Both the position numbers and the translations under genes were made by a program. Positions 20,400 through 48,286 of a DNA stretch of 64,000 nt are shown in pieces (the first letter of the stretch is position 1; every line of letters begins with the position of its first letter). The notes under the pieces are model-generated. The model saw nothing but the letters and a program-made list of their open reading frames with translations. It made no database searches and was not told where the DNA came from. This DNA comes from Siphonodentalium dalli (Eukaryota; Mollusca; Scaphopoda; Gadilida; Siphonodentaliidae), in contig CP136061.1 of NCBI GenBank assembly GCA_032622095.1, positions 253,717,582 to 253,781,581 on the forward strand, in the 5' to 3' direction.

Positions 20400-20410
20400 T
20401 AATGCAGGGC

Positions 20411-21570: not shown

Positions 21571-22128
21571 TTAGTCTGGTTGTCGGACACATGGATGCGG
21601 ATATGACCCAGTCGTTGGTTGCGGCTGCTCTGTTTGTTGTGTGCTAAGACTATGTGACTCTACAGCTATCGTGTGTCGACAGCTGTGTTTCAGAAAACGA
21701 CAGAGTTCGGCTCTGAATATTTTACCACTTATAACATACGTGAAAAAATTCAAGCAGTTATTAGCCCTGTTCAATGTCATAAGAACACCACCAACAGTGG
21801 TCTCAAAAAAGCTTACATCTCCTTTGAGTATTGCCGCTGTTAATACCAGTGGTGTTGTGGTCACAATCAGTTGGAAACTCGTTGCTATTAGCATCAATGA
21901 AGTCGATGATGTGGCTTTGTTTCCTTGTCTCCCTTGGTCGTTGCTCCCAGTGAAATATTTCAAGGCACTTTTCGTTTTCCTGATATGGAAAATGAGTAGA
22001 GTGTTGCAGGATGCGATAATTATGACTGGAGCTAATGAATACTTAACAACATCCAACCAAAGCCACACGTTGTGGACAAACCAGACATACTCTGGCGTCC
22101 CGGTAAGGACGCAAGTCCTTAATTGATT
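21571..22128 (-). pseudogene. Second 7TM receptor, C-terminal half (split gene)
   Basis: Continues the receptor whose N-terminal half is at 47,789-48,286. From 22,128 the minus strand reads (A)AT CAA TTA AGG ACT TGC, giving NQLRTCVLTGTPEYVWF with the loop-2 Cys, then TM5 (LDVVKYSLAPVIIIASCNTL), loop 3 with Lys/Arg, TM6 (LMLIATSFQLIVTTTPLVL), TM7 (RANNCLNFFTYVISG) and a Thr/Gln/Pro tail; 185 residues and a stop. It closely matches the paralogue at 15,091-15,615. The frame is fully open up to the insertion point at 22,129/22,130. As it stands it has no start codon and no TM1-4, so it cannot make a receptor unless the insert is removed from DNA or RNA. Confidence 0.85.
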
Positions 22129-22129
22129 A

Positions 22130-22218
22130 GCGAGTTTGCGATTTCAAACGGGTACGGGTACCGGTACGGGTACTGGTAGCTACCCGTAACGGTACACGTT
22201 TTGAAATCGCAAACTGTT
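22130..22218 (+). repeat. Left terminus of the large insertion, with subterminal palindrome
   Basis: AGTTTGCGATTTCAAA at 22,133 is mirrored by TTTGAAATCGCAAACT ending near 22,217, enclosing GTACCGGTAC-type repeats. The first 13 bases and the GGGTACGGGTACCGGTA block recur inverted at the right terminus. Confidence 0.7.
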
Positions 22219-22854
22219 TTACGGGTAGAATTAAGCATATCGACGGGTAGTGTATGGTGAGCCAATTGCAGCACAATATATATTATATAGAGAAATTGTT
22301 ATCCGCATTCGCTTTCTTGGCCGACGTTATACTTGCTGTTATGGTTATATGATGGACATCTGCGTGGATAATGGATTGCATTAACCAGGGACGAGGCGAA
22401 AGTGGAAGGGGTTGGCGTCTTTCTTTGACTCATTTTGGTAACATTTTCAATAATTAGCTTTCATAAGTAATTTCCCAGACCGTTCGAGTGTCGTCTAGAA
22501 CAGATGGAATTTTCTGACTGAGAAAATATGTTATGATAGCACAAATATACAATTACGCTAATTTAATAATCCAACCATTATTCGGTGTAAAATGTGTTGG
22601 TTTAGACCCAGGGTCCAAGAATGTCCTACATGCATGCACTTTTAGTCAGATATAAGACCGAAATTGCCCCTTATATTAGTTGGGGAATATTTAGTCATAT
22701 AACTGGTAATGGGTTGGAATCTTTCGAAGGGTCGGGCAAGGGAATATTCATCCCAAGAACTTGGATATTTGTCTGGGTCTAAACCCGGATGTAGGTAGAA
22801 CAAGAGCTACACTGGGCGTGCAAAACACCCCCTCTCTTGGGCAGGCTTGGGGCA
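22219..22854. other. No recognisable feature
   Basis: Inside the large insertion. AT-rich with no gene and no repeat seen elsewhere in the window. Confidence 0.3.
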
Positions 22855-22998
22855 ATTACTTGTGAATGTAATTAATTACAATTACAATTACTTCAACATT
22901 TTTCAATTACAATTACAATTCCCATTACAACTATTTCACAATGTAATTAATTACAATTACTTTGAAATGTAATTCAATTACAATTACAATTACATTCC
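22855..22998. repeat. AATTAC simple-repeat cluster
   Basis: Many AATTACAATTACAATT hexamer runs interrupted by short spacers; both AATTAC and GTAATT occur, so the block can fold on itself. Confidence 0.8.
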
Positions 22999-23185
22999 AA
23001 TACAGAATTGAAATAGGAACACTATTTATCTATATGATAAATACTTTATTTGATAACAAAACAAAAATTTAACACAAGCAAAATAAAATACACGAAGAAG
23101 CACACTAATGACGCACACTTTGCAAAGAGCAGCCAATGTACCGAGTTCAGGATAGGAGTCTTGGGTCGGCGGAAACTGATAAAAA

Positions 23186-24065
23186 GGGGCATAACTCTGG
23201 TAAAAATTGGCGGACGGAACTCAAATTTGAACTTGACCTGTGTTTTGGTGGGAGAAAGTAATATACCAAATTATCATTGAATCCGATAAGCTCTAGTAAA
23301 GTTATCATCCGGACAACAAATTTCAGGGATTTTCTAAGTCAAATTACGTCAAATAAGGGGCATAACTCCGGTGAAAATTGGTGGACGGAACCCAAATTCG
23401 AACTTGAGCTGTCTTTTCTCCTAATAAACTCACATACCAAATTTGATTGAAATCGGTTCACTCTAACTAAAGTTATCATCCGGACAACAAATTTCAGAGA
23501 TTATCTAAGTCAAATTACGTCAAAAAAAGGGCCATAACTCTCGCAAAAATTATCAGATTAAAACGAAATTCGGACTTTAGCTGTATTTCGATATATGTAA
23601 TCCACAAAAAAACGGGTTTTGCGTATAAACATTCCAAAATCGAGTTATCAACCGGAAACCAAAAACCATAAGAAAAACATAATTTTCTGAGTCGAAAAAG
23701 GGGCATAACTCTGCCAAAAATGAGTTCGAACTTGACCTGTGTTTTGGTGGGAGAAAGTAATATACCAAATTTGGATTCATTCCGATAAACTATACTAAAG
23801 TTATCATCCGGACAACAAATTTCAAGGATTTTCTAAGTAAAAAAACGTCAAATAAGGGGAATAACTCCGGTGAAAATTGGCGGGCGGAACCCAAATTCGA
23901 ACTTGAACTTACTTTTCGGCTAATAAACTCACATACCAAATTTTATTGAATTTGGTTCACTCTAACTAAAGTTATCATCCGGAAACCAGGTTAACGGACG
24001 GACGCCCGGACGCCCGGACGGACAGACCAATACTATAATGCGGCCGTTTTTTCAAACGGGCGTAT
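23186..24065 (+). repeat. GGGGCATAACTC repeat, five tandem units
   Basis: Units start at about 23,186, 23,357, 23,529, 23,700 and 23,856, each with GGGGCATAACTCTGGTAAAA or a variant, then CCAAATTTGATTGAAATCGG and AAAGTTATCATCCGGACAAC. The array ends with ACGGACGGACGCCCGGACGC and a short GC-rich inverted end (GCGGCCGTTTTTTCAAACGG). From memory, this is a widespread type in molluscan genomes. Noncoding. Confidence 0.75.
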
Positions 24066-24420
24066 AAAAATCAAACTTGTTAAATATAAAGGGTGTTTAA
24101 TGGTACACTATTCATTATATGGTTCGAATAAAGAGCGTTTGCTTCACGTCTATGCGAAACAAAGAAAACAGCTAAAAGTCGCTCTGATGACGGTAAGATT
24201 GTGCCGAGTATGAGGTGTGTATATCAGTATTTTGTGTCACTATCGGCCACTACAATATACAACAGTCTTGGGGTTCAAATGCGCCATGTCCGTTCAAAAG
24301 TCAAATATCTATATTAAAATGAGAAATCAGTCACCACCACACAAGGTACAATAACTGAACGGTTGTATTCAATCGTGTAACACATTCACGGTGTACTTAT
24401 GCCCATGCACAAAGGGTCGA
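24066..24420. other. No recognisable gene
   Basis: Only notable item is AATAAAGAGCGTTT at 24,127, a word that recurs through the window. Confidence 0.3.
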
Positions 24421-24960
24421 TAGGGGACGTGGCGAGAGGGTGGGGTGTATCACCCCAACTTTTGTCAACAGTTGGATATTGCATATACCTAACACACCAA
24501 AACATACGTTGAAATTATTCTGTCATTCAGTTTGATTTTCCAAAAATGTATTAGTGGGGATTTTTGTTATAGTTTTAGACCAACATTTGCAAATATTCCT
24601 ACTTTTGGTAGAAAAACATTCGGGCTATATGGTCAACAGCAGCTTGGAAATATCCAACAAATGTAAAGCTTGAGGAAAGTCAATAATTTATCAATTTTCA
24701 TGTTCAGATTTCAAAACGTTCTCACACCAGACCGAACCATGGTCGACCCGGTATGCCCTGGTCTAACCACATTCAGTGGCTCGTCAATACTGATAATTAA
24801 TTTGTGAAAAACAAACCAGGGCGTGAATTTGCCTGGTGTTAGACCACTAGATGTTATGAATTTGCAATTTCCAGGTTCATATCTACAAAACTGTTCTCGT
24901 ACTGCATGGTCGGCAATGTGGACCCCCCCCCCCATCACAGGACTTCTGCAACAAGACTAC
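24421..24960 (+). mobile_element. Fragment of the hAT-like G-rich element family
   Basis: GGGGACGTGGCGAGAGGGTG resembles the terminus of the complete element at 62,305 (CAGGGATGTGGCTAGAGGGG). Interior phrases CGAACCATGGTCGACCCGGT and TTAGACCACTAGATGTTATG match 62,800-63,050. A C13 tract is at 24,921. The right end is not clear. Confidence 0.5.
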
Positions 24961-25624
24961 TGATCCATTTAGAACAGTCCACAATAATATTCAGGACAGT
25001 GAAGGATCGGTTGGGGGGAATCAGAGCCCAACGGCGTGCACAATTTGAATTACGCACAAACCTCTGTTTGGTGCACACTAAATCTCGAGTAGCTAAATTT
25101 GGGTGGTTAGAATATTCCAACGACTTTTATAGCATTATAAGCTACTTAAATATGCTATTTTTGCTACTTGACAAGTAGTTACAAGACGGATCGGGGATAG
25201 TTAAGCGATGTCTATTCGTGATTGGCTCTATAACTGCACGTGACAACCTATTCAAATGGCGGCTTCCCAGTCGAGTCGAGAAAAGGCACAATTACTGTTT
25301 CTGTCAATCCAGCTAGACTAAAATTTGAAAGGCGTAAAATGTATAACTTCTGTGTGACAAGTCATGGTTATTTATAATCTTAGGTACATGCAGGACATCC
25401 GGTAACGAATTTACGAATTATTGATACGACATTTAGACGTCACCAAATTTCCAATTCATTCATTCGCAATTTATTTTTGAAATTTGAATCTGTGACAAGG
25501 AGAGGTAATATTTGCGCTCATGTCGCTTTTGTTTCTATATTGACGTATATCTATATGTTCTGTGTTCACATTGTAGCCTACTGGTAACTGTAATCATATA
25601 AACATAATTCCACTAGTTCATTAA
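24961..25624. other. No recognisable gene
   Basis: Short frames only; nothing repeated elsewhere that I can see. Confidence 0.25.
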
Positions 25625-25629
25625 GTAGT

Positions 25630-26797
25630 CAGGTCTGGCAAATGTGAGAATACAGCTACAATAGCTGTATTCAGCTAACCTAGATGTATTCAGCTATATA
25701 TTATACTCTCAAAGCGGCTGTTTTTCGATAATATACTAGAAGCGCTAATTTGCGCATCAAAATTAGGCTACCCTATTCTCCGGTCACCCTCAACCAAATC
25801 AAAATCGTCGCTTGTGTTCTGACAAAGTGTTGCCTTTTGTCGGCACGACGATGGTGATTATGTGTGAAAACTTACTATGGCGTCGATGTCGGTCATAACG
25901 GTTAATAACTCTCTTAAAAGTATGCAATGCGGAATACCTTGAAAAATACAATATTTATCACCGAAGATGGAACATCTTAATCATTCCCGGAAGTATCAAT
26001 ATGTCGATGCTGGTAAAACTCAGTTTGGTTGGTGCGTTAAAACAGGTAAAAAGGGGAACATCTCTAGCCAGAGTTTAACCGAGCGAGTTCCACTCACTGC
26101 TTGAGCTGATTCTCTCCAAAAATACGGAAACGCATACATGTATGTCGAATCGCGAAAATACAAATACCAATGTTATGTTTAGTAAGTTTTCACACATTAT
26201 ATATTTTCCCGCCAAAACAGATTGAATAGTTCTGACTCGCTAACGACCAGGACTTCATGTTTGAAATACTTCAGAAATTATATAAGTCGCATTTTCATTT
26301 CAGTTGTCCCTATGTTGTGCCATACATTTGCAATATGCCGCACAATATCTGTATATATACCGTTATGAATAGTTACCAGTATCGCTCACAAACCGCTAGT
26401 GGTATGTACCGGTAATTCTAAATGCTCGATATAGGTACACCATTCTAACGCCCCCTACCGGTTTAGCATCGGGAAGAAGTAAACGAGTGTTTGGGATGAA
26501 TTTGATCTTTATTTTATAAGTTAGTTAATGAATGCATTTGCAGAAAAAAGTCCCCAGAATATTTACTGACATCGACCACCGTAGTAAGTTTTCACACAAA
26601 ATCAGAATTGCCATGTCGACAAAAGGCAACACTTTGTCAGAACACAAGCGACGATTTTGATTTGGTTGAGGGTGACCGGAGAATATGGTAGCCTAATTTT
26701 GATGCACAGCCGCTTTGAGAGTATAATTTATAGCTGAATACATCTAGGTTAGCTGAATACAGCTATTGTAGCTGTATTCTCACATTTGCCAGACCTG
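25630..26797. mobile_element. 1,168-bp hAT-like element with long inverted ends
   Basis: Starts CAGGTCTGGCAAATGTGAGA and ends with its complement (…GCCAGACCTG); the first 90 or so bases of the arms are nearly identical, and similarity continues for over 200 bp with one small indel. GTAGT is present directly outside both ends (25,625-25,629 and 26,798-26,802). The loop holds three copies of AAGTTTTCACACA. No transposase. CAG…CTG ends recall hAT elements; the duplication is 5 bp rather than the usual 8. Confidence 0.8.
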
Positions 26798-26939
26798 GTA
26801 GTTGTATAAAAAATCCGCGACAATAGGTGAAATCAGCTATAGGGCCTACTGATTCCAGTCTGTATAATATTTATGTCCCAATGTTTCCCAAAATCATGCC
26901 AAATGGCCTCACCAGGCCAGATAGCATCCCTATGTTGAT

Positions 26940-27575
26940 CCAATGTAAAGACTAAAGTAAACGGTTGTCTCAAATTTTGTTTCAACGTTGAATTTGAAAT
27001 AACGTTGGCGATTGGTCCAGATTGCTCGTTGAAGTGAACATAGAAATATTAGAATATACATTTGAGACAACATTGAAAAACTAACTTTGAACATTGGAAT
27101 AATATTGGGAAGCTAACGTTGAATTTTTTGACATTCGTTCAACGTTAAAATAATATTGGAATAAAAAAAGTATTTTTTTTGTTATGTTCGCTCGATATGA
27201 TCAACAACATTGAATTGAAAATGGGATAATTTTGGAAAACTAATGTTGAATATTGGGACGATCACTCGATTTTGAAATAGCATTGGAATCCTAATGTTGA
27301 TTTTGTTTTATGTTCGCTCAGCGTTGAAATAACGCTGGAAGCCTAATGTTTAATTTCTGGACATTAATTTAGCGTTGAATCGACATTGAGATTACGTTTG
27401 AAAGCTAATGTTCACTTTTGTCAAGTTTTGTGATGTTCGATCAACATTGAAATAATGTTAGAAATCTAACAGTTTAAATTTGGACAATCGTTCAACAATG
27501 AATCAATGTTGAAATAAAGTTGGAAACCTAATGTTGAATATCTAGATGTTATCTAATGTTGAATTAAAGGTACTC
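26940..27575 (+). repeat. Degenerate 53-62 bp tandem repeat (AACGTTGAAATAA type)
   Basis: About ten diverged units of the form AAACCTAATGTTGAATATTT … TTCGTTCAACGTTGAAATAA … TTGG. A short remnant with the same words lies at 28,140-28,200. Old array, noncoding. Confidence 0.65.
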
Positions 27576-27783
27576 AATCCGATTCGACGGTCCCCATATC
27601 ATCAGATTCCAACAACAACACCATTTTTTTAAATGCCATTTCAGTTATCAGAAAAGATTAATTGCCCAAAACAATGCTTTAGAACCACAGTCATCTATAA
27701 AATTGCCCAAAACCTGTTATTTATCAAAGTTTTTTTCAACAAAATTTTATTGGTTGTCAAATATCTGACACAAAAAGCCACTC

Positions 27784-27911
27784 GATTCAGCCCTCTAAAT
27801 TCAGATTGTTTGGCTTCGGCAATCCGCTACGGCAACAGTATGCCGTGCCCCAGTTTGCTTCAGCAAATTGCTTCAGCAATGCTGATTGCCGTAGCCAATT
27901 ATGAAGGCTGC
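27784..27911 (+). repeat. Dispersed 125-bp repeat, copy 1
   Basis: CAGATTGTTTGGCTTCGGCA … TGATTGCCGTAGCCAATTAT-GAAGGCTGC. Second copy at 30,709-30,832 in the same orientation. Contains short internal inverted pieces (GGCTTCGGCAAT / ATTGCCGTAGCC). Confidence 0.75.
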
Positions 27912-28960
27912 TCGATTTGAGAGTTATCGATCTTCATCCGCTATCTTGTCAGATAAGTTCTTCTCGCTGACAGTTTACTGGGCCACTTATAATTAAAATA
28001 CTAGATTTAAAATATCGATATCTGATTACTCCTACTGTACCTTGATGGGTGGGTTCCTCGACTCAAGTTAAATATTTTGTACCCCCGAAGCCAATGATAT
28101 TGTAATTCGTGAGCGTTAATTCGGATTGAGTACCTTTAATGTGGGAAACCTAACACTGAATGTTGATACATGCTGTACGTTGAATCTAAGTTGAAATATC
28201 AATTATCATGCCCTGACCGAGACGTTGCATGCAATTTTTTTATATGCACGATTTACTTTGCATTATACACAAAACTATAGTCCATTGTAATTGTTATAAA
28301 CCACTATCTGGTAGTTTGATGAAACTTTTAATTTCCGATTCGATTCCTTTATTTAGGAACCACCGGAGGTCCATCATACATTCCTACTTTTATATTGTTT
28401 GTATATATTTGGCTATTCATAACACTGAAATTAATCGCTATGTTCATTCTAATGAACTCACAAATATTATAACCATAACATTGCTGAGAACTGTGATGCT
28501 AATGGTATTCAATACATTGTGCTCATTATACCCCCTGCAACAATGTTGGGGTGGTATAGTGAAATCAGCTCGTCCATCGTTCGTGTGTGGACACAAATTT
28601 GTCCGGAGTTTTTTTCAGACAGTCGTTATTTTTATCAATTTCCGTGAAACTTGGCAGAGACATCAACCACCATGGGAACCTGAGCACCTGCGATTATGGC
28701 GTCTGTCAGACTTTTTTGGTGGAGTTATCTCCCTTTTTCGACTTTAAACATATGGGGTACCGTTTGTGAGTCGTGTGGTCAAAAATTGCACAACATTCTC
28801 AATCTGTCAATTAAGCCATGTTCCGAATTCTGTTGCATGAGATTATCTAAATTGTACCCTCAGACTATCACTATTATAAGGCACCATCACTATAATTTTT
28901 TTTGAGGTAAAATACCACCTATCTATGATTTCAGTTGTTTTTTATTTCTCTGTTGGCCAG
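27912..28960. other. No recognisable gene
   Basis: Includes the longest open frame of the large insert (172 codons, 28,229-28,747), which I do not recognise. Its second half (GTGTGGACACAAATTTGTCC, TTTCCGTGAAACTTGGCAGA) looks like a dispersed noncoding repeat of the kind that carries TTTTGATGAAACTTGGCA-type phrases. Confidence 0.35.
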
Positions 28961-29282
28961 AGGCGGACTGGCCGATCGGGAGGCCGGAAAAATTCTGATT
29001 CCATGTGATTTTCTATCAAGCGAGAATCCGAGGGTTTTTTTTACGGTTTGGGGGGGGGGGGGGGGGTATATCATATGTGGTTGGGCCGCCCAACCACAAC
29101 TTGGGCCGCAAATGAAACCGATGTGGGCCGCCACATGTGTTGTTTAACCAGCCGTGTATCCAATAAGATGGTACTCTTCTCACATAAATTCATGAGGGCA
29201 GAGGCGGACTGCATGGCCGATCGGGAGACCGGGAAAATTCCGGACGTGGGCCGCCACATGTGTTGTTTAACCAGCCGAATTG
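28961..29282 (+). repeat. Two-copy tandem block with G17 tract
   Basis: AGGCGGACTGGCCGATCGGG at 28,961 recurs at 29,200, and TGGGCCGCCACATGTGTTGT occurs at 29,122 and 29,247. A long G tract sits at about 29,050. Confidence 0.65.
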
Positions 29283-29389
29283 ACATTAAATGAACTTGTC
29301 GGCATCATATAACACCACGTAAAGACCCCATTAATCTCGAGATTTTAACAGTAACTCCCAGCTGTAAATCCCAAAAAAATTCTTACGCA

Positions 29390-29770
29390 CCCCTTCCCCA
29401 ATTGAAATTTACAAGAAAATAGGAATGCTTCAGTTGATGCCAGTCTAGTTTATCGGATTCGAGATTTTCTTGTATAGTTTTCAAAATGTTCTCACCCCGG
29501 GCCGAACAACCATGAACAGCCCGGTGTGTCCTGGTCTCTTGTCCGTAGCCGTGTGCATTTGTCTGGAGTTAGACCGCTAGATGTTAGATTTTATGCAATT
29601 TTTCAGGTAAAAATATCTGAATGGTCTCATACCGGGAATATATAGAACCATGGTTTATGAATATATATGATATTAGACCAGAGGTGCAAATGGAATTATG
29701 CAAAAACATGTATTTGGTCTGCATCTGATTCAAGGGGGGATTTAACTCTCAACCACCCACCCTACCTGTA
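29390..29770 (+). mobile_element. hAT-like G-rich family fragment
   Basis: CACCCCGGGCCGAACAACCA, TGCATTTGTCTGGAGTTAGA and AGGTGCAAATGGAATTATGC match 62,940-63,175 in the complete element. Ends not determined. Confidence 0.55.
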
Positions 29771-32700
29771 TGTATGCTGTTTGATACTGGTATAATAATA
29801 TATAGATTCCTATTGATTTCTAAGCTGCCTGGGTGGAGGCAATGAGGCTGTAGATTTGATTTTTCAACCAGTAACAGTCCACATTTTCCTACTTCGGGTT
29901 AAACTGTTCGACCGAAATCGCCACAAATGTTAACAGGTCTATTTTGCTGATATTTAGTATGAAGGGTTCTTTGGTGTCTGGTATTGAAATTTATTCAGAT
30001 GTGGTCACCAGGTTAAATAGGGTGGGACCAGGGACATAACTGTATGTCTCTATAGTCATTCTTAAATTGTCTTCTCAAGAGAGGTTGGACTATTTTGCTT
30101 ACATATAGTATGGATGATCCTTTAGTGACTGATATTCAGATTTGTTAACATCAGGTCAACCTGTTAAGAAATGACGGGGGCTATGGGGAGTTAACAATTT
30201 TGTGTTTAAAAAATCATTGAAATACCAAATTCATTAAAACATCTTCCTTGGAACTACCTAACTGATTAATCTGACATACATGTATGGTGTTTTGGGTCCA
30301 TGGATAAATGGGCTTCAAACATGTCTAAATGGTTTTATAAAAAGGTGCTTGTGAGATTGGAAATTTCCAAAAATTGAGAAAGTTTGAGATGTCGGTTGTG
30401 AAATTCCAACCCAAGACTTGGGAGTCTGGTGCCCGGTCGGGAGGGGACTTGTTGAGCTGGAGGAGGGGGGTGATCAGTAGTGAACAGTGGGCAATTTCAT
30501 GGTGGATATTCACCTTGAAATTACCCACTGTACACTACTGAAGCCTCTCTATGCTTATGAAAAGTTCTGACTATTGTGGTCTCCAGAGTCCCAGTCTTTG
30601 CAGTCTGGTGAGCGACCCCACAGTCTTTGACTGTCTTGTTGGTTAACCCATTGCTTGTTCACACCAGATAAAATTGTTAACCAAATTTTTTATATGCCAG
30701 TTGCAGCCCTCTTAATTCAGATTGTTTGGCTTCGGCAATCTGCTACAGCAACAGTATGCCGTGGCCCAGTTTGCTTCAGCAAAATGCTTCGGCAATGCTG
30801 ATTGCCGTAGCCAATTATGAAGGCTGCAGTTGTATTATGTTATTTGTCTGTCAGTCCATTTGTTCATCCATGCTAACATTTGGCAACTATGGGGTAATTA
30901 TGGTATTTTGTCCAGCCCGTCATGGTTTTTTTATTTTTAAACTTAGCTCTACTAGGGCCCTGCGAATCTGAGTTTACAGTCAAATCAAATTTTGAATTCA
31001 ATTGGGGATGAGGTTCGCGAATCAAATCTCAATTCGAATATATACAGCTACATGTATGCGCAAAATAATTGACCCCTTTAACGTGGATGTAGGCCGGTAG
31101 TTACCGTTCGTACCACCAGTAAACCACAATCAAGTGGTATTACGTCGAATAATAGCGACTGACATGTGGTGTCCATCGGTAGTCTTACCACGGTAATGAT
31201 TTTTAACTGCGATAACCCAGTAAATAAATGCCAAATACATTTTTTGTGACTGCAATAACGGTAAATTCAATCTAGAAATTTTTAAACTCATCCACATTTG
31301 ACCTACTAGTATGCCATGTTCAATCGCAAAGTATTTAGTTCACAAATACCATATCAGGGTATCTTTATTTTCATGTTAACTAAACACCTAGTAATTCAGT
31401 ACATGTACATTGTTTATTCAGCATAAATGTATATGTATGAGGTTGGTCACTGCAACATTGCAATTGCATCAACAGTGCAGCTACGATTGTCCGTGTCTTT
31501 GAATATGTCAGTGGCTTGAAAGACATCTGACATTCAATTTGGCAGGTGTAGAAAAGTCATACCCACTCGCTTTTTGAAGCCTATTTTTCTGAGTTGTATT
31601 GCTATCTGTTGTTAGGAGTATACCACCATGTGTGGCCAGGCTATAATCACAGAATAAAGGGTGCAGGTCTTATATTTCGGCGAGAATCCAATTCTAGATT
31701 CTCGTAAATATTCTCGCAAATTACCCTGGATTCTCATGAAAAAGTATGTATAGATTCTCACAAAATCAGATGAAATATATGCCCTGGGGTGATTGTGTTA
31801 AATTTGACACATACTAGTACCAGTACCTGTCCATTCTGTTTTTATTGATTTAAATGCCCGCAGCCTTATGAAACAAAAAGTTCTGGCCATAGAGGTGGCC
31901 TTGTATGCCAGAGACTGGTCTTGTCAGCCAGAGAGGCAGCACATCGAATGGTAGGTGTACTACCATGTGGAATTAGCTCAGTTAAATTAACCCACCCATA
32001 AATACCAAATGTTGGTTCATCCGTCCATATGTTCGCTTTTGGTTGATAACATTAGATAGTCTAAACTGAAGGGAATGAAATTTGGTATGTGGGTTGTGTC
32101 CACAAATTTTAACGCAGGTAAGTCCCTTTTTGTTCAAATTCGCAATAAATTTTCATCTCTCTAGCCCAAAAATACAAGTCAAGTTTAAATATTTGGGTTT
32201 TGACCACCAATTTTCACCAGGGATATGCCATCTGTTGGAATTGCCACGACCAAGTCTAAATCGCCTGAGATAACTTGAGCAACACTTTTGAAAAAATGTT
32301 CAACTATCACATAACATTGCACAGTGAGTTTATGTGGTCAGCCATTCAAAATGTATCCACATGGCACATATTACTAATTAGCCCCTTCTAGATTTCAGTC
32401 AATGCTCAAAGGGGCTCGAGAAACAAATGATGAATAAATTTGCCAATAATATAAAAGTCCATATAACCATTAGTACATCTCATATAAAAGTAATAATACC
32501 CTGTATCTCCTACGATATGTGCCCGATTGGGTTAACATTTTGAACATACATGTATGTGGTAAATCCAGTACATGGAGTGAGTAAATTATCCAATTTGATT
32601 TTCTAACTTTCTTCTAAATGTCGCTTCATTTGAATTTTTGCCATTATCAAAAACAAGTCTGGAAAATGTTTGTCATTGCTCCCTATGGGAGACTCGCATA

Positions 32701-33190
32701 TATAAGATAATGCATTGGCACAGGGTTTTTTGTAAAATTTCAAGAAGCTCCATTCATGGAAGGGTTGTACAGTAAAGTAATTGAGACAATTTCGTTTTTT
32801 GATGATCGGTTGTCCGTATCATTTCTACAACAAAATTATCACCTTATATTTACTTGGCTACACAATTTTAATGTGTGATCGCCACAGAACATTTTTTTTA
32901 AGAGTACATATATATATGTCCATATTTTGCTGTGGGTGTAGAGTATTCTCGGATAGAATAAATATACCCAAAGCAAAAACTAAGCGAGGGGCACCTAATG
33001 GTTGAGTCTGGGATATTTGGCACTTAGAACGTGGCTAGATGGTTTGGTGGGGAGGGTCGACATCTTGGTACTTCCAACTGAAGCCCCCCCCCCCCCCCCC
33101 CCAACCCCTTGAACGACACAAACTAAGTTTGCGTAATTCAATTTGCAAAACCCCATGGGGCTTGATTTTTCTGAACTTTTCCATCACAGA
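29771..33190. other. Long noncoding stretch
   Basis: No gene. Contains the second copy of the 125-bp repeat (30,709-30,832) and, at about 33,086-33,105, a C run of about 20. The rest is unremarkable. Confidence 0.3.
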
Positions 33191-33196
33191 CTACTA

Positions 33197-33386
33197 CAGT
33201 AATGCCCTAATTAATGGACTCCATAACCACAGCAGGATTTAGTCGGAAATATGGCTTGTTGTCATTCATTGGAAAGCTCTCAGAGAGCTTTCTGGTGAAT
33301 GGCAACAAGCCACATTTCCGACTAAATCCTGAAAGTTACCAATAATTCTGCTGTGGTTACGGAGTCGATTAATTAGGGCATTACTG
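33197..33386. mobile_element. 190-bp foldback MITE, TA target
   Basis: CAGTAATGCCCTAATTAATG at 33,197 pairs with ATTAATTAGGGCATTACTG at the right end; TA flanks both sides. The arms extend almost to the centre (GAAAGCTCTCAGAGAGCTTT at about 33,274). Mariner-type MITE by ends and target. A right half-copy is at 37,224-37,328. Confidence 0.85.
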
Positions 33387-37223: not shown

Positions 37224-37328
37224 GAGAGCTTTCCGATGAATGGCAACAAGCCATATTTCTGACTAAATCCTGAAAAGTTACCCATGATTCTGCTGTGTTT
37301 AAGGAGTCGATTAATTAGAGCATTACTG
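37224..37328. mobile_element. Right half of the TA-target foldback MITE
   Basis: GAGAGCTTTCCGATGAATGG through TTAATTAGAGCATTACTG, then TA. Matches the right arm of the element at 33,197; the left arm is absent. Confidence 0.8.
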
Positions 37329-39095: not shown

Positions 39096-39258
39096 CATAA
39101 CCGGAGTTGACACAATACATATTATGATGGGGTCAGCAGGAAGACGGCCACGGACGAGGTTATGCCAACACCAGACTGAGTGCACCCCATTTGGGAGTCA
39201 GCATGATGTGGATCGTCATATACCGGTATCCATATCTTGCTGACCCTCAACTGGGCAA
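39096..39258 (+). repeat. Dispersed 155-bp repeat, copy 1
   Basis: ATAACCGGAGTTGACACAAT … GATGGGGTCAGCAGGAAGAC … GAGTGCACCCCATTTGGGAG … CCTCAACTGGGCAA. Copy 2 at 41,354-41,508, same orientation, about 93% similar by eye. Family unknown; possibly a SINE, but I see no clear tRNA promoter boxes. Confidence 0.75.
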
Positions 39259-39308
39259 GTAACTGATCTTATGCACTTGATGATTCAATCCTATTTATGA
39301 TTATTTTT

Positions 39309-39702
39309 CTATATCCTGTATTCTTGTATTTTGAAGACCTCTGTCTGTTTGTATGTATGTCATTTATACAAATCTACGATTCTCGACCGATCGGGACGAA
39401 ACTTGGTACGTGTGTGTATTTTGACCAGGCGGTCGTCGTTGTCGTATTGGCGAGCCCGTGCGGCGCCCGCTTCGCGCATGCGCAGACGAGATCTCGGAAA
39501 CGGGTGGAGCTATCGACTTGAAATTTGCTATGTGAATGTATCTTGCCGAGCCTGTGCGACGCCAGCTTCACGCAGACCAGATCTCGGAAACGGGTGGAGC
39601 TATCGACTTGAAATTTGGTTACCAGATCTCGTAAACGGGTGGACCTATCGACTTGAAATTTGGTTTTTGAATAGCCTGGGCAACGTCGGGCTCATCGGCT
39701 AG
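39309..39702 (+). mobile_element. Short non-autonomous Helitron
   Basis: Starts TCTATATCCTG at 39,309; GAAGACCTCTGTCTGTTTGT and CGACCGATCGGGACGAAACT are typical 5' Helitron phrases. Ends with an imperfect hairpin (CCTGG-gcaacg-TCGGG) and CTAG at 39,699-39,702. Three copies of ACGGGTGGAGCTATCGACTT sit inside. The exact 5' base is uncertain. Confidence 0.65.
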
Positions 39703-40324
39703 TCTATTATATATTTTGGGAAATCTGTCTGTCTGTCTGTGTGTTCGCGATGGACTCGAAAACGACCAAACCAATTTCGATGAAACTTGGTATGTGGGGG
39801 TACTTTCGGCCGGGGAGTGGCATGGGCCTATTAATTTGCCCGTGCGAAATGACCTTGACCTTGAAATCGGGTCATTTCAAGGTCAATCGCCCGAGTATCA
39901 CGGGATTTCGATGAAAATTAGTGTCTGGGGATACTTTAGTATGGGGAGTGTCGTAAGCCTATTCGTTTGCCCGTGCGACATGACCTTGAAATCGGGTCAA
40001 TTCAAGGTCAAATCGCGAATATTGATGGGATTTCGACGAAATTTTATACATAGGGTTACCTTTGTCCACTGTGTTTTGGACGGGTCAAATTGTGACCCTG
40101 ACCTTGAGCTTCAAAATGATCAATTCAATGTCAAATCGGGTAAAACCGGATGGATTTCGACGGGTACTCTTGTGGGGTACTTTTGTCCGGCCAGTGTTTT
40201 GGACGGGTCAAATCGTGACCCCACCTGACCTTGACCTTCAAAATGGACAATTCAAGGTCAAATCGCGCAATTCGCCAAAAAGCAGAGGGGAAACAGCCTG
40301 GACGAAGTCGGGTCCACCTGCTAG
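39703..40324 (+). mobile_element. Non-autonomous Helitron joined head-to-tail to the previous one
   Basis: TCTATTATATATTTTGGG at 39,703 follows CTAG directly; the element ends with CTAG at 40,321-40,324 after CCTGGACGAAGTCGGG. Interior repeats GACGGGTCAAATCGTGACCC and CCTTGACCTTCAAAATGGAC are shared with the Helitrons at 122-1874. Confidence 0.75.
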
Positions 40325-41353
40325 TGTTATATATAGCTACAATGGCACTGTTTATTGTTACATCCAATATGCTTTTTTCGCATTTAATTAGATCTTTCAG
40401 CGTTTTCCCAAATAAAATTAATGTACAAAAGCATGACAAATTCTGAATATTACGGTTCGGTTATACTTAATTTTGGGAACCCAGGCTCCGGCAACCCAAA
40501 CTTATTATAACGGGTCGGCATAAGGCCTAGAACCGTGTGTGATACCGGGGGGTATATCATGAATCCGCTTAACAGAGGGTATACTCTTCAATCCATCACT
40601 GGAAATTTCCATCTTTCCTCCATCATTCCATGAACTTCTGTGAAAATTATATCTCATGTCCAAGCTGAGCTACATTAGGCCAAAAAAGAGATACTATGTT
40701 TCCGTACATCGACCGAACCTAAAAATAACCTGCCGACCCTAAACTTTTTATTGATATTTTGAGAAAAAGTCAAAATTTAATGCTCATAAATATTGATGAT
40801 CTTTAGTGTGCAAAACACATGTTTTCTAACATATCCCTGTGAAAAGTGACCACGAAGTGACAGCTGTCTCAAAAGCCCCAGGTGTGTGTTGGGTTGTGGA
40901 TTAATGGGCATACATTTTGCAATTTTAATTTCCTGAGAGTTGATCTCCTGCCTGCTTTATGTCTTGTTTTGGGAGTTCTGGAACACTATCAACAGACATG
41001 GTGGGTGTGTATCTGTATATATACATGTATATAGGTTATCACCACATATGTTAGGGGTATAGCTACTGTTTTAACAAACCAGGCATGCTCGGTGGGCGTA
41101 CTGGCTACCCCCAGAAAAAGGGATGTAGTTGTCACAATACAAGTACGGTATAATGGCGGTATTATTGGTAAAATTCTTATAAAAAAGTTAGTGACATGAA
41201 TTTTGTACCAAGTTTATAGCAAAATTTATAAAAAAAAATGTGGTATGTGAATAATAAAAAACTTACTTAAGCATGAAGTAAGTTTAATCTTAATGTATAT
41301 TTCCACTGTTAATCAAGTAATACTTTCCCCACAGCATGGGTTAGCATTTTATG
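40325..41353. other. Noncoding, nothing recognised
   Basis: No gene or repeat supported. Confidence 0.3.
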
Positions 41354-41508
41354 TAACCGGAGTTGACAAAATACATATTATGATGGGGTCAGCAGGAAGA
41401 CAGCCACGTACGAGGTTATGCCTACACCAGGCTGAGTGCACCCCATTTGGGAGTCAGCATGATGTGGATCGTCATATATCCATATCTTGATGACCCTCAA
41501 CTGGGCAA
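41354..41508 (+). repeat. Dispersed 155-bp repeat, copy 2
   Basis: Same unit as 39,096-39,258, with small differences (GACAAAATACATATTATG; AGACAGCCACGTACG). Confidence 0.75.
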
Positions 41509-41662
41509 CATCAGTCGAGGTATTTCTGCAGTTGGATAAAAAATATCGAAATAAAATAAAAATTCCTTACCGACCTACCTACCCTAATTTTTTCGCTGGC
41601 CTTAACACTTTTATTAATCTATATCATCTATTTTGGCCCTTTATTTGCAGGTACAGTGCAGG

Positions 41663-42243
41663 AACATGTTTGGAACTACATTGGAACTACAGAGAATAAT
41701 TCATAATATGATCCCGATCTGAGCTTCAGGTAGTGTACATGTAGTACGATGTTCGTACTAAGAATTAAAAGTTCAGCATCATACCCACAGGTTGCATCTA
41801 TGTACATGTACCTGTGTATGTACAGCAGGAAATTCTCTAACGTGGTGACCAGGATGAAATTCATACAATGTTCCGCTTCCAGTAAGAAACCGCATCTTTT
41901 ATTGATCGGAGAGTCGCGCAGCATATCCCATGTTTACGCCTGGAGCCATCAAAATAACGGAAACATGTTTGGAACTACAGAGAAGAAATTCAGCGCAAAC
42001 GCCTAATATGATCCTGAGCTTGAGTTTGATGTTCGTACTAAGAATAAAATGTTCAGCATCGTACCCACAGGTTGCATCTACTAGTATGTACCTGTGTATA
42101 TACGGAAGGAAATTTTCTAATGTGCTGACCAGGATTAAAATCATACAATGTTCTGCTTCCATTAAGAAACCGCATCTTTGATTGGTCAGACAGTCGTGCA
42201 ACATATCCCATGTTTACGTCTGGAGCCATTAGCATAACGGAAA
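41663..42243 (+). repeat. Tandem duplication of a block of about 290 bp
   Basis: AACATGTTTGGAACTACA at 41,663 and 41,962; CATACCCACAGGTTGCATCT at 41,780 and CGTACCCACAGGTTGCATCT at 42,060; AGAAACCGCATCTTT and ATATCCCATGTTTACG in both. Frames on both strands are shadows of the duplication. Confidence 0.8.
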
Positions 42244-42397
42244 CCAAGACCGCTTCATCGTCTCTCGATGGCCGTTTCATGTCATATGTTGGAGAGAGGT
42301 TTAGGAGATTTTGACATTTTCTGCTGATCATTATGCGGAATAAGTGCCAAATTAATGTGAATGACCAGGACTGTTGGCAGAACAAATACATGTACGC

Positions 42398-42536
42398 CAT
42401 TGTGGTGGATTGATGGTAACATGTCATGACATTGACCACTTTTAGCTTGTGTTCAACCTTGTCGCTTTGTGAATCGGTTGAACATAAACCTGAAGTTGTC
42501 AATGTCACGCCATGTTACCATCAATACACCACAACT
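42398..42536. repeat. Hairpin element, arms about 40 bp
   Basis: TTGTGGTGGATTGATGGTAA-CATG and GACATTGACC pair with TGTCAATGTCACGCCATGTT-ACCATCAATACACCACAA. Looks like a small foldback MITE. A GGTTGAACATAAAC / GTGTTCAACC pair lies near the centre. Confidence 0.7.
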
Positions 42537-45037
42537 AAACTTATATTAATACAGGAAAGTTTTCAAAATAACATGTAATCACATATTGAATGCATACAAT
42601 GTGTTCAATTTATCTCAGATTTAGAAACCTGAACAATACGTTGAAAATGTTTGGATCTTTAATCTACAGTTAAAGGTGACATATGCAACCGGTTTGGCTA
42701 AATAATAAATTTAATTGGTTGCCACTTCGGTCAGATGCGATATTTTAGAAATGCTCCTATCTAGTGATGTTTGGCGTAACATTTCAATGTTTTGAGATAT
42801 GTTTCGCATTTTGAGCGAAAACTTCATGACCTAGCTATCTCCCCATATTTTGTCACATCACCGATTGAGGATAAAGCCTTCGCTGTTGATTTCTACCAAC
42901 ACATAGCATATTTCTGCAAAATGAAAAGTCAAGTGATACATGTATTCATTCTTTTACAAAGTATATCTTATAATTCTAATTGAATACAGAGCCAATGATA
43001 CGATTTGACCAGAAAAGGAAGAGTTTACGGACTGTCTCAAAATTGTTTTCAAAATCTGATATGATCAAATAGACAATTTTGGGGCTATCCCCTATGGGGC
43101 TATGGGCCTATTGTGTGACACGGATATTCCGCATGTGAAATAGTATTCCTTGAACTCATAAAATATGGGTTGGATTCTCATCTAACTGAAAAGTGTGGTA
43201 GATACACAAACACAACCTACACTTTTCCACTTTTTGGGATCAGATGTGGGGGCCCAGATCACTCTAAAACTGTTGCATGTCACCTTGAAGATTTTTTTTC
43301 TATTATTTCATATATTAATTTCAGTATCATCGAGATGTGTGAAGCGTGTGTATTACATAAATACAACAGTTCTAACTAAATTACACTCTTGAACAAGCTA
43401 TATAAGCATTAAAGATTCATGAAGAAAATATCTGGTATTTCCATTATCCCCAAGAATCTTTACATCAATGTCAGTCAATCACAACATTTAACAGTAAAGT
43501 GATGAAGCCAATCAGTATATTGACGATTTTCATCGGCTCCAGAGTTTCTCGACACATAGCTAAAATAGCATAATAAGTTTCCTGTCATATCTGGTCACAA
43601 TGCTTATTTCAGTGTTCACAAATTTGTGATTACAACTAATTTAACACTAATGTGTGTCCATTTGAAGAGTCCAGAAATTATCAATAATAGCCATCAAGGA
43701 GAATAGAATTAAGTTTTTCCAAGAATTTCAACAGTTAGCACCCGTTTTTCTTATTCGCCAAAATTCAAGTAATAGGAGATAACATTCTGTCAATCGTAAA
43801 ACTGCGCTTTGATGTTATACAACAGGAATTGCATGCATAAACTATTTATAGTGGTGGTTATGTGACTTATAGTTACATGTGTATATTCATTAGGACTGTT
43901 ATGTGTAGCTTATTCCAGCCTGAGAGCCTAATTTTAATGAGAACTGATTATACACATGTGTATCCAGGTGATATACACATGTAAAACTTGATCGTTCTTT
44001 TGTATTGACAAGACGCAACAGGTGTATCCTCATGTCATGGCTGATTGTCATCTGTATCAGTTGATAGCACATGCATGTCATGAACATCTGATTAGAATCA
44101 GGGACATTTTCATTGACTTTATAAGCTCTTTGTAACTATACCAGAAATAAAAAATTCTGAATGCAAAACATTATGGGCGCAGTGCATGTTCAGCTGAAGT
44201 TAGATTGAGATAAAAATAATATTATTCATCCTGACCTGAGGTGTGGGGATGGAAAGATCTCACCCCGAGAGGCAAGATATTTCAGCCGATTGTCCGGACC
44301 CAATAGCTGGTCCCGAAGATGAGATTTTTCTATGCCCACATCCCAGGTCATGGATTATTTTTCTCCCAAACCCAAGAGCCACATACTCAATGTTTTGTCT
44401 TATACCCAATTTTGGCACATTTCAGTAGTTTCATAACGGTACATCAGGGGAGAAATCTGATGTCACATTTATGATTTTATTTGATGATTTTGGTATATAC
44501 TGGAAAAGCAAAGCACGATACCCACACAAGCTTGGTTAATTGGTTTGAGTGAAATATACATGGCTAGTGAAAACGACATGGCTATGTCATCATTGTCCCT
44601 AGCATGTCATGAATTAAAACACATCTAGTCATATATTTAGACTGCCAGTCATTGTTAAATTTTCGGAATGACGTGTGGTACCATGTCATTGACCAATATG
44701 GTACTAAAGGTGTCCTCTACCTGGACCAATTACCTCGTTTGCAGCTGTTGTCCACAATTCTGGGATCTCCAAGAGATCTCGCTCTACTATCAGATGTCAG
44801 ATCACTGACAACAATTGAGTCGCTTGCTGGTTAGGTCGGCCCCATTTATGTGGAAACAGTTTTCTTTTGATAATGGTGATTGGTGATGATGTTCAATTGC
44901 CCTTGTACATTTACTTGTTGGCGAATCTGTACCCTGCGTAATTCATCCCAAGAGAATAGCGACACAAGGGGAGAGAGGTACGACTGTTGTCACTCCTGGG
45001 CAGCGCATCGGTGAGTTGGTTGAATGGTTAAATATAG
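42537..45037. other. Noncoding, nothing recognised
   Basis: No gene. At 44,680-44,702 GTGGTACCATG and CCAATATGGTAC form a short pair. Short frames here match nothing I know. Confidence 0.3.
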
Positions 45038-45193
45038 AATATCCATACAGTTTTATGAGATACAAGGTTTGTTTTCGCGAGTATGATTCAGCAAATGCCA
45101 AATGGGGAACCAAGCTTTAGCAAGGTCCCCATTTGGTGAATTATATATACGAGTGAAAATAAGCCTTGTATCTCGTTAAACTATATGGGTATT
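45038..45193. mobile_element. 156-bp hairpin MITE
   Basis: AATATCCATACAGTTTTATG-AGATACAAGG pairs with CCTTGTATCTCGTTAAACTA-TATGGGTATT; the centre CCAAATGGGGAACC…GGTCCCCATTTGG continues the stem. Target duplication not clear. Confidence 0.75.
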
Positions 45194-45929
45194 ATTTTTA
45201 TCCATTGCCAAATTTTAAATATCATAATGAAATTATGTCAGCCTCTGTGCAATTGTTGGCAAAAAAGTATGTTTTTCTTGTAAACATTAAGGCAATTTGG
45301 TAAATAATATTTTTTTCACTGCATATAACAACTAGAGTGGTGTGTTTTACCTCAAGTGGACTACACAAAATTATAAAATGATCTTTTGGCTAATGGCTAT
45401 GCGAGGTGCGAGGGCTGTTGTGACTCTACTCAACTGAAATGGTATGAAATAGACTATAATACTATTTCGGATGCCACGCACCTGGTGTTTCGATGCTCTT
45501 AATGAATGAACAGGGAGAGTGGCTCCGCCCAGTGGTGACAAGGGATACTAATCCATGCCCGCAATGTTCTCTGGGTTGAAGACTGATATCATGTCCGAAT
45601 GGTGCTTACGTCTTTTTTATTGTCGGTTAAAGTTATAAAACAATATTTTGAACATGTACATGTATGTTCTTTGGAATTGTTTATAGAGTCTTGTGTAGTC
45701 CACAACCCCATATAAACGACACAACCATTAGTTCATGCACTCCCATTAGTATTGCAAAGCCAACAGAGTGAACTTTTCTGTTTATATATAAATATCTTTG
45801 AACAAATACATATCTCTAAAATAGATCAAAATGTCCCAATACGACATTTTTTGGAATAGAATAAAGACCCAGTATCTGGGATAAACAGCAGCTGCAATAT
45901 AACTCCGGATAAAGTTACATCTATTAAGT
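45194..45929. other. Noncoding, nothing recognised
   Basis: No gene or repeat supported. Confidence 0.3.
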
Positions 45930-46485
45930 GGATAATAAATGCTCTTTATTGCTGATTAGTAGTGCATCTTTAAATATTTGATGCCCACAGCATCAATCAC
46001 ATGATATTAACCATGCATTATTTTACTTTTGTGCAATTTTCCCCACTTCTTCTGAACTGATAAAAAACGCTCTTTATTTGTCACATTATTTTTTTTGCCC
46101 ACCCCCCCCCCCCCCACTTCATTTGAGGGACAAAGGCGCTTATACCCGCAATTTTCCGACATATTTTCTAATGTGATAAGGAACGCTCTTTATTGCGTCC
46201 TTAAGACGTCAACAGCATCGATGAAATGACACTGCCACAGTGTGATATAGTTGTCAATAATTTGATGCCCACATCACCTATCCCATGACATTAACAATGC
46301 ATTATTTTACATTTGTGCAATTTTCCACACATATCTTTTGAACTGATAAGAAGCGCTCTTTATTGGTTATATATTTTTTGGAAATCCCCCACCCCTTAGT
46401 CATCTGGGGGTCAAAGGCATTGTTACCCGCAATATTTCTACATATTTTCTAATGTGATAAGGAACGCTCTTTATTGCTCGTTTTG
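45930..46485. repeat. Two-copy block carrying AACGCTCTTTATT words
   Basis: ATTTGATGCCCACAGCATCA … ACATGATATTAACCATGCAT … at 45,975 recurs at 46,260. Each copy ends with TCTAATGTGATAAGGAACGC-TCTTTATTGC (46,170 and 46,448) and has another GCTCTTTATT about 105-115 bp earlier. A C14 tract lies at 46,101. Confidence 0.7.
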
Positions 46486-46889
46486 CTTCTTTAAGAGTGA
46501 TTTCAACAGAATCTACGAAATGACACTCCATTTCAGTTTATTGCTGTTTTTAAAATTTGACGACCCAGATTGCAACCATTTTGGGTACATTATCAATTAT
46601 TTAGATAAAATAAGTTTCAGTGTCTGATAAGATTCCCTTGGTCAAATTTTCACGAAATTTACATTGTTTTTTTTGTGTGTAGGCTAATGTACTTATTCCT
46701 GGTAAGAGGCCTTGTGTTGCAATTTATTTTAAGCTAAAAGCACAAATGCTCTGAACTATATATATTTGTTTATTTTGAATAAATATTGAAATTATTTTCT
46801 CCATTGTCATATTTTGTGGTCCACATGTCATTAATATCTTTAGAGGCAATATTATCCCCTAAAAGTTGATTAAATAGCTACTTTGAGTG

Positions 46890-47275
46890 ATTAGATTGGA
46901 CCCCTTTGAATACCTATTAAAATAGCTAGAACAACCACTCGAGGTAGAATAATTTCCCACCAATAGTAGTTATCAGATTAACTACCCGCAGGTAGCAAAA
47001 ATTCCCACTCGCAGGTAGTAAATTTAAATACTGGGTAGTTCATATTCATCCCACTACCTAAAGTAGTTAAAATTTAGCCTACCTTTGGGTAGTTAAAATA
47101 GCCACAAGAGGTAGTTATTTCAACCACTGAAGGTAGTTATTTTAACTACCAAAGGTATTTAATTTTTTAGCTACCCGCCAGGTAGTAAAATTAACCACCC
47201 AAGGTAGCGGGATGAATACGAACTACCAAAAGTAGTAAAAATTAACTACTTTTGTGGTTAATTTAGCAACTTTTT
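46890..47275. repeat. Cluster of ACTACC/GGTAGT inverted motifs
   Basis: About 20 short motifs such as GGTAGTTATTTTAACTACC, ACTACCCGCAGGTAG and CTACCTAAAGTAGTTAAAAT in both orientations within 380 bp. CATATTCATCCCACTACCTA and AGGTAGCGGGATGAATACGA show that the block is also inverted as a whole. Confidence 0.75.
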
Positions 47276-47280
47276 ATTTA

Positions 47281-47367
47281 GTGTGTGTGGTTTAAGGGGG
47301 TGTATAGTTGGGAATTTGAAGGTGGACACACCTTCTCAACGCGGAGACCCCCTATAATTACGTCCCT
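47281..47367 (+). mobile_element. Right end of a hAT-like G-rich family copy
   Basis: GGTGGACACACCTTCTCAAC-GCGGAGACCCCCTATAATTA-CGTCCCTG matches the right end of the complete element at 63,350-63,398. Its left end was not located with confidence. Confidence 0.55.
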
Positions 47368-47738
47368 GTGTCGAGACTGCGTATAGCACCGCCAACTCAC
47401 TCTCTTAATCATAACATGTCATTACTTGAGTGAAGACAGTTGTCAGTAAACAAATCGGCGTTCCATAGTTATCTTAGTGTTAGAAGCCGCCTCGATACTT
47501 TGAACATAAAACATGGCTTAAATGACAAATGTATCAATGAGATTTGGCAATGAAATCGTGCAATAAATAGATTAATGCATAGCTGACTGTTATTTCGTGG
47601 AACTAATGTACTTTTGAGTGAGAAAACTTTAGCGAAAGACTACCAGTCAATGAGATACATCTACCCGTTCCAAATCCCTATCGCTTTATGTGCTGCATTC
47701 AAAGTACGCAAATGACCGTGACGATTTTCACCGATCTA

Positions 47739-47787
47739 CCTGGATCTACCGGTACCCGTACCCGTCCGACGGGTATCGCAAACTCGC
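47739..47787 (-). repeat. Right terminus of the large insertion
   Basis: Reads inward on the minus strand as GCGAGTTTGCGATACCCGTC then GGACGGGTACGGGTACCGGT. Matches the left terminus at 22,130 in inverse orientation. TA at 47,788-47,789 separates it from receptor codon 166. Confidence 0.75.
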
Positions 47788-47788
47788 T

Positions 47789-48286
47789 ACTATCATTACC
47801 AGTAGATAATTTCATTCCATATATATAATGAGAATTGGCCAACATACTACCAATCACAACGAACACAATTCCACTGAATACTGACTTCTTGCTGGAAAAG
47901 AAGGAACTCTTTATGTGACAACACACGTGCATGGTTCGATCGACAATCAGTATAACGAGGATCCAGACACAGACATCTGCTGAAGAATAGATCAGAAATA
48001 GGAATGCCCTACAAGAAGATTCACTCACGTTAGCGATGTGCCAATCGCATATTCTTCTGATCGCATCGGGCAGCAACGTAATGAACAGCGGAACAAGGTC
48101 TGCTATCGCCAATGCCATAAACAACAACGAGGACCGTTTTACTCTCATCGTCGGACGAGAAAATACATTTAATATTATAACATTCCCGATAGTTCCAACG
48201 CAAAGAAGTAGTAATTGAATTATTCCAATAGTCACATTCCAGGTTTCGTTGAAAGTTAAATTATCATGGTATTGTTGGCTTTCCAT
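47789..48286 (-). pseudogene. Second 7TM receptor, N-terminal half (split gene)
   Basis: Start ATG at 48,286, chosen because it aligns with the start of the paralogue (MESQQYHDNLTFNETW against MEQYPENLTNNDTVTE). Glycosylation sites NLT and NET/NVT, TM1 with GN at 34-35, TM2 with LAIAD (59-63), Cys92 before TM3, DRT (116-118), TM4 138-156, and YIYGMKLSTGNDS leading into loop 2. The reading frame runs into the inserted element after codon 166 and stops 30 residues later at 47,699. The other half is at 21,571-22,128 on the same strand and in the same frame. Both halves look free of other damage, so the insertion may be recent or this may be a polymorphic allele. Ligand and subfamily unknown. Confidence 0.85.

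Follow-up and report, generated by a model that had tools for sequence, protein, structure and literature searches.

How a receptor gene came to be broken in two by 25.7 kb of other DNA is the question raised by a stretch of 64,000 nucleotides (the window) from the scaphopod mollusc Siphonodentalium dalli, contig CP136061.1 of assembly GCA_032622095.1, positions 253,717,582 to 253,781,581 of the forward strand. The comparisons made here, based on one assembly, make it very probable that the break is the result of serial nested insertion, in which an outer element of about 3.25 kb split the receptor and holds within it a 317-bp repeat and a giant element of 22,212 bp. The outer element, the 317-bp repeat, and the giant are all dispersed multicopy families, and both elements inserted at sites that are seen empty elsewhere, with short target repeats. 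The first-pass annotation, made from the letters of the window alone, had proposed one insertion that split the receptor in frame and then grew, which agrees with these data, but the single very large element that it envisaged is replaced by three units. The features of the nest are the following.

21,571-22,128, minus strand: C-terminal half of the receptor, to the stop codon; its positions 22,126-22,128 are one copy of the target repeat ANT
22,126-22,128, plus strand: left target-repeat copy, ATT, placed by the flank listing and the unoccupied sites
22,129-25,073, plus strand: left part of the outer transposon, equal to positions 1-2750 of the copy L016 with the 317-bp repeat inside, 94.7-97.1% identity in three pieces
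22,129-22,142, plus strand: left terminal inverted repeat (TIR) of the outer element, AGCGAGTTTGCGAT
22,133-22,215, plus strand: left-terminal hairpin of the outer element, formed with a second, inverted copy of the terminus (z -9.3)
22,842-23,158, plus strand: 317-bp repeat nested in the outer element, with TCTTGGG on both sides (22,835-22,841 and 23,159-23,165)
25,074-47,285, plus strand: giant DNA transposon nested in the outer element, 22,212 bp
25,074-25,099, plus strand: left terminal repeat of the giant, CACACTAAATCTCGAGTAGCTAAATT, with its TG duplication at 25,072-25,073
25,619-26,798, plus strand: foldback repeat of about 1.18 kb in the giant, present in the giant copy gA and not in gB
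47,260-47,285, minus strand: right terminal repeat of the giant, CACACTAAATAAAAAGTTGCTAAATT, with its TG duplication at 47,286-47,287
47,286-47,788, plus strand: right part of the outer transposon, equal to L016 positions 2748-3251, 98.6% identity
47,775-47,788, minus strand: right terminal inverted repeat of the outer element, AGCGAGTTTGCGAT
47,789-47,791, plus strand: right target-repeat copy, ACT, with a middle base unlike that of the left copy
47,789-48,286, minus strand: N-terminal half of the rhodopsin-type receptor, start codon at 48,286; its positions 47,789-47,791 are the other ANT copy

Receptor gene and its tandem array

The earlier claim that two half open reading frames (ORFs) of one seven-transmembrane receptor flank the 25.7 kb was confirmed. 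When the segment is excised together with one TA, an open frame of 351 codons results, whose protein matches the Pfam model 7tm_1 (PF00001) at full length (model positions 1-256 of 260) with 46.8 bits, above the gathering cut-off of 30.5, and so belongs to this family, while the N-terminal half alone reaches 26.5 bits and the C-terminal half alone gives no hit. The joined protein also scores above the threshold for the Srw chemoreceptor model, and among solved structures opioid receptors are its best relatives (E about 3e-8). The insertion point, placed by eye, lies in the loop after the fourth helix. All 12 paralogues compared read on through the junction, and each of the 12 alignments shows them to lack at least 3 bp of the single-TA join at or near that point (the L012 gap falls some 12 bases downstream of the junction, and in L007 9 further bases are absent). 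For this reason the receptor before the insertion is taken to have had 350 codons; the 351-codon frame of the first-pass annotation is open as described, but it does not represent the ancestral length.

The split gene is a member of a tandem receptor array that spans C1:253.47-253.81 Mb and by hand count contains 24 members: besides the split gene itself, 10 full-length copies free of stops, 5 full-length copies that contain them, and 8 fragments or pieces. Another member is seen in the window outside the nest and serves for comparison.

15,091-16,131, minus strand: tandem receptor paralogue with one in-frame TAA near the same loop

No relative exceeds 75% identity in protein among those detected, so that a close intact copy of the split receptor was not found in the assembly. 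The joined ORF contains no other lesion, and its ratio of nonsynonymous to synonymous substitution (dN/dS) against 8 open paralogues is 0.34-0.55, the paralogues among themselves giving 0.49-0.75 in 4 comparisons; together the ratio and the lesion-free frame would fit a recent break, without fixing its date. The gene is probably null now, because a transcript would need to cross 25.7 kb. In an array so rich in broken copies, the break in this receptor is ordinary transposon damage. Between the two receptors the window also carries a reverse-transcriptase ORF (19,128-20,438, minus strand; Pfam RVT_1, E 6e-26).

Outer element and its target repeat

The inverted ends announced by the first-pass annotation are present as 13-base sequences GCGAGTTTGCGAT at 22,130-22,142 (plus) and 47,775-47,787 (minus), with TA outside each, and the window contains no further perfect match to them. 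The copy L016 aligns to the two parts in the order 1-714, 708-1582, 1685-2750, and 2748-3251 at 94.7-98.6% identity, leaving two insertions, the smaller of which, the 317-bp repeat, has at least 40 matches including itself (40 scored of 775 candidates). In a search of 2.23 Gb with at most one mismatch the outer ends gave 1,363 and 1,362 matches, against 14 and 20 for the reversed control pattern. The first 100 listed of these 2,725 ends yield 31 facing pairs, with a median of 2,909 bp and a maximum of 8,775 bp; of the other neighbour pairs, 1 faces away and 3 are in line. From the facing pairs 16 copies were fetched for comparison. Among the longer pairs L056 and L057 are ordinary members carrying insertions, and in L054 and L055 the match to the family is confined to the ends; the ORFs of L054 appear retroelement-like by eye, and the single one run against Pfam gave no hit. 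The family bears the marks of a non-autonomous TIR DNA transposon: inverted ends, a short target repeat, and dispersed similar copies. No transposase of its own was found among ORFs of at least 130 codons in five longer copies and at least 80 codons in L014, which were viewed by eye, with only one run in Pfam. The right end lacks a fold like the left-terminal hairpin (z -0.29).

For the flanks of the outer family the first 100 listed of 1,915 matches were used, which all lie on C1; the search pattern put no constraint on the neighbouring bases except that it excluded G at the fifth base out. The base adjoining GCGAG is A in all 100 and is preceded by T in 94; further out the fourth base is A in 94 and the fifth is T or C in 92. 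According to these counts the A and T that adjoin GCGAG and CTCGC appear to belong to the element itself. At 6 of the 7 insertion sites for which relatives were available the unoccupied form lacks 3 bp of the single-TA join: this holds in 8/8 alignments for L019 (all to giants), 4/5 for L017 (mostly the same giant stretch), 14/14 for L020, 10/10 for L057, 4/4 for L027, and the 12 receptor paralogues; at the seventh, L056, two relatives lie at +0 and +2. Because the unoccupied relatives are 3 bp shorter, the repeated unit is best read as the 3-bp ANT. Copies with the same ends, which the first-pass annotation proposed to look for, are numerous, about 2,700 ends. Its TA target duplication, and with it the hint at Tc1/mariner, fails, as the unoccupied sites do not show an exact TA repeat.

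The ANT copies of the two sides, paired as plus and then minus neighbours within 10 kb, are not simply identical. One pair has TAT on both sides, supporting true duplication; over all pairs the outer A and T agree in 28/28, an agreement that is not independent proof of duplication, since the family also prefers targets with A and T at these positions, and the middle base differs in 10/28. The outer positions (0/56 discordant) and the centre (10/28) differ with a Fisher P of 5e-6, and the probability of at least 10/28 centre mismatches at an assumed rate of 5% is 6e-7. Full agreement outside with this discordance in the centre is ill-suited to simple gap-fill duplication, and an exact 3-bp duplication was rejected as the full account. 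Equality of the centre in 18/28 pairs, against 11.6 in shuffles (P 0.008), counts against full independence of the sides.

Seven discordant copies were examined; since their scored matches were all to L020 except for edge matches, the search was run again without L020, which yielded relatives for L056, L057, and L027 and none among the matches listed for L021, L022, and L055. Of the 41 matches to L020, 14 were fetched, and of the 40 from the second search, 16. The target of L020 is ATT and its right copy AAT; that of L057 is ATT and its left copy ACT; the relatives of L027 have AAT and its sides AGT and ATT. These unoccupied relatives indicate that one ANT base can be foreign to the target. 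At the receptor the site is AAT in 10 paralogues and AGT in 2, and the two sides on the coding strand are AGT and AAT, so that either side may be the foreign one. The two relatives of the L056 flanks, L072 and L073, lack the element but retain the two target copies, with none or one of the end bases left on each side, and look like cut-and-paste excision footprints at these two loci only. Integration of a circle by a tyrosine recombinase would also explain a foreign base, but it was set aside, as the same two loci resemble cut-and-paste footprints.

It is possible, though on balance doubtful, that the outer element brings along a short single-stranded A-n-T flank of its donor site, which pairs with a target A-N-T by the outer A and T, so that the middle base on either side may derive from its earlier location, and that, besides, a 22-kb DNA transposon in which no gene is detectable has reached about 100 copies. 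The carry-over of the donor base would proceed by sticky-end joining, the least sure step of the scheme; if true, each insertion of the family would be a one-base record of its donor.

Giant element and its coding content

The giant begins with CACACTAAAT and finishes with ATTTAGTGTG, its terminal repeats being 26 bp long and imperfect. In the window TTTGGTG is followed by CACACTAAAT...ATTTAGTGTG and then by TGTGG, the broken site reading TTTGGTG-[22,212 bp]-TGTGGTTTAAG. Among 20 outer copies checked, the same site is unbroken, TTTGGTGTGGTTTAAG, in 8 of 9 close sisters (L016, L018-L022, L025, and L026), and in the ninth, L014, four additional bases stand at this place, by chance or as the footprint of an excision. 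The alignments of L027 (84%) and of seven copies from a more distant subfamily also span the site, with small differences, and L017, L028, L054, and L055 give no alignment there.

A degenerate pattern of the 26-base termini has 136 and 129 matches in the genome (controls 0 and 0), and the left-end 33-mer has 105 at up to 3 mismatches (controls 0). The first 100 listed of the 265 ends contain 22 facing neighbour pairs within 60 kb, 17.5-43.5 kb apart with a median of 23.2 kb, and 4 neighbours facing away, the remaining ones having no partner under the strict terminal pattern. Four giants fetched whole, gA to gD, are colinear with that of the window apart from gaps. Of its 22,212 bases, 21,970 align to gA at a substitution distance of 0.6%, 18,328 to gB at 2.0%, 14,564 to gC at 3.6%, and 10,654 to gD at 3.5%; alignment pieces shorter than 250 bp and those that mostly overlapped were not counted. 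A fifth, gE (27.9 kb), is colinear as the 22-kb unit with insertions, one of them with a reverse-transcriptase ORF (RVT_1, E 9e-16), and a sixth, gF, is colinear over the part read, 20 of 33.9 kb. A matching 2-bp repeat flanks 11/11 copies inspected (7 TA, 3 CA, 1 TG). With inverted ends, a target duplication, and dispersed similar copies, the giants bear the marks of a TIR transposon family. Nesting is reciprocal, as a further giant harbours the outer copy L019, whose flanks match 41,279-41,477 of the window at 98.5%. Elsewhere, two giants of 23.29 kb stand in the same orientation 231 bp apart (C2:60,791,343-60,814,631 and 60,814,863-60,838,148), and at C2:42.3-45.7 Mb ten listed ends are clustered, none of which has a partner facing it; in nine of these, TCAA follows CACACTAAAT.

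In the giant of the window no transposase was detected by Pfam among 106 ORFs of at least 55 codons, a scan that short exons and unknown families would escape, and the best match was Rad60-SLD in one ORF (E 3e-4). Nine longer ORFs of gB, gC, gD, and gE likewise contained no transposase in Pfam, the sole hit being the reverse transcriptase of the gE insertion. The longer gE was considered as an autonomous form and rejected, its extra length being insertions into the 22-kb unit. The number of ORFs is somewhat high against 90 +/- 8 in 40 Markov sequences, as is the longest ORF, 185 codons against at most 168, which is located in direct repeats of about 125 bp. Indels of a length divisible by 3 make up 3/38 in gA, 16/75 in gB, 33/115 in gC, and 24/89 in gD, that is, about or below one third. 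A lopsided substitution phase was seen, as raw counts, in two windows of the giant near 41.7 kb (8/9) and 42.4 kb (6/7), and the 204-codon ORF of gB around them has no Pfam hit. Because ORF number and length exceed the Markov sequences while the indels ignore the frame, the giant is described as having no convincing coding signal, rather than as proven non-coding.

Apart from the nest, the window contains about 110 copies of a 26-bp tandem repeat with 95% matches (2,212-5,084) and 35-bp tandem repeats with similar units at 61,683-62,302 and 63,399-64,000, the second reaching the window end.

Competing explanations and known systems

Serial insertion would start with the entry of the outer element into the receptor, the giant following it; since the giant is located inside the outer element, it postdates or accompanies it. 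Each family presumably depends for its mobility on an enzyme that acts in trans and whose gene lies elsewhere. That the outer element already carrying the giant was built elsewhere and entered the receptor in one jump is very unlikely: the outer ends and the ANT copies would look alike after such a jump, and longer members of the outer family exist, up to 8.8 kb among the listed pairs, but the four longer pairs proved to be ordinary members with insertions or matches at the ends only, and a search of 2.2 Gb that allowed up to 3 mismatches found the junction of giant and outer element a single time. The 25.7-kb composite is therefore not a multiplying unit. Splicing of the nest as an intron from a still functional receptor, with which the lesion-free joined ORF and its dN/dS would agree, is even less probable, for a recent insertion equally predicts an intact ORF, and the full-length members of the array, including some that contain stops, align to almost all of the query in a single frame and show nothing like an intron at that point.

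Several points weigh against serial insertion itself. No transposase was found for either family in the ORFs scanned, the target repeat of the outer element is imperfect (ATT/ACT), the order of events and the mobilisation in trans are steps that we infer, and the two receptor halves differ in their nearest paralogue. Among the 12 paralogues the N-terminal half is closest in nucleotides to L001 (86.1%) and the C-terminal half to L011 by score (84.5%) or to L006 by identity (85.9%). This last point would suit an origin from two receptor genes or a misassembly, which the first-pass annotation had named as the threat to its own reading, and with about 105 left ends of the giant in the genome a switch of the assembler inside it is conceivable in principle. 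Such an origin is nevertheless the least probable of the alternatives, in view of the complementary parts of the outer element, the matching TG on both sides of the giant at a site unbroken in sister elements, the open and complete joined ORF, and the paralogues that continue through the junction; gene conversion within the array would also give the halves different nearest paralogues. Serial nested insertion thus remains the preferred explanation.

A literature search on giant or large non-autonomous DNA transposons gave no matching paper, and the terminus GCGAGTTTGCGAT did not occur in the literature among the matches listed. Both families share inverted termini, a short target duplication, many dispersed copies, and the lack of a found transposase with non-autonomous TIR transposons similar to miniature inverted-repeat transposable elements (MITEs). 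MITE-like elements are usually at most a few kb in length, whereas the giant family is 22 kb, and the 3-bp repeat of the outer family is, unlike theirs, often discordant at the middle base. In PMC12730594 the CMCT clade (CACTA/EnSpm-Mirage-Chapaev-Transib) is characterized by CA..TG termini and duplications of 2 to 5 bp, with which the CACAC...GTGTG ends and the 2-bp duplication of the giant agree. A transposase with the motifs of the clade was, however, not found among the giant ORFs scanned, although an autonomous relative elsewhere is possible. Of 70 Transposase_21 hits, the 32 on C1, C2, and the listed part of C3 were compared with the listed giant ends (five C3 hits beyond that part and all of C4-C9 were left out), and none is closer than 100 kb to one. 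The giant is a candidate member of this clade.

With the giant eukaryotic transposons reviewed in PMC6431247 the family shares mobility and a size of more than 20 kb. Passages of that review emphasise the excess coding capacity of large elements, give CACTA families of 16-20 kb with 4-5 ORFs for a red alga, and state that material between two long terminal repeats seldom exceeds 10 kb. The giant family of the window differs from such elements in that neither a transposase nor a convincing coding signal was found in it. A young DNA-transposon family of 22 kb in which no transposase was found stretches the presumed cargo of a trans-acting enzyme. In the piggyBac-like mechanism a carried single-stranded flank pairs with the target, and excision is seamless. 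The outer family departs from it in its target, which is ANT and not TTAA, and in the two L056 relatives that keep both target copies, yet a similar pairing of carried flanks would explain its near-constant A..T and its free middle base.

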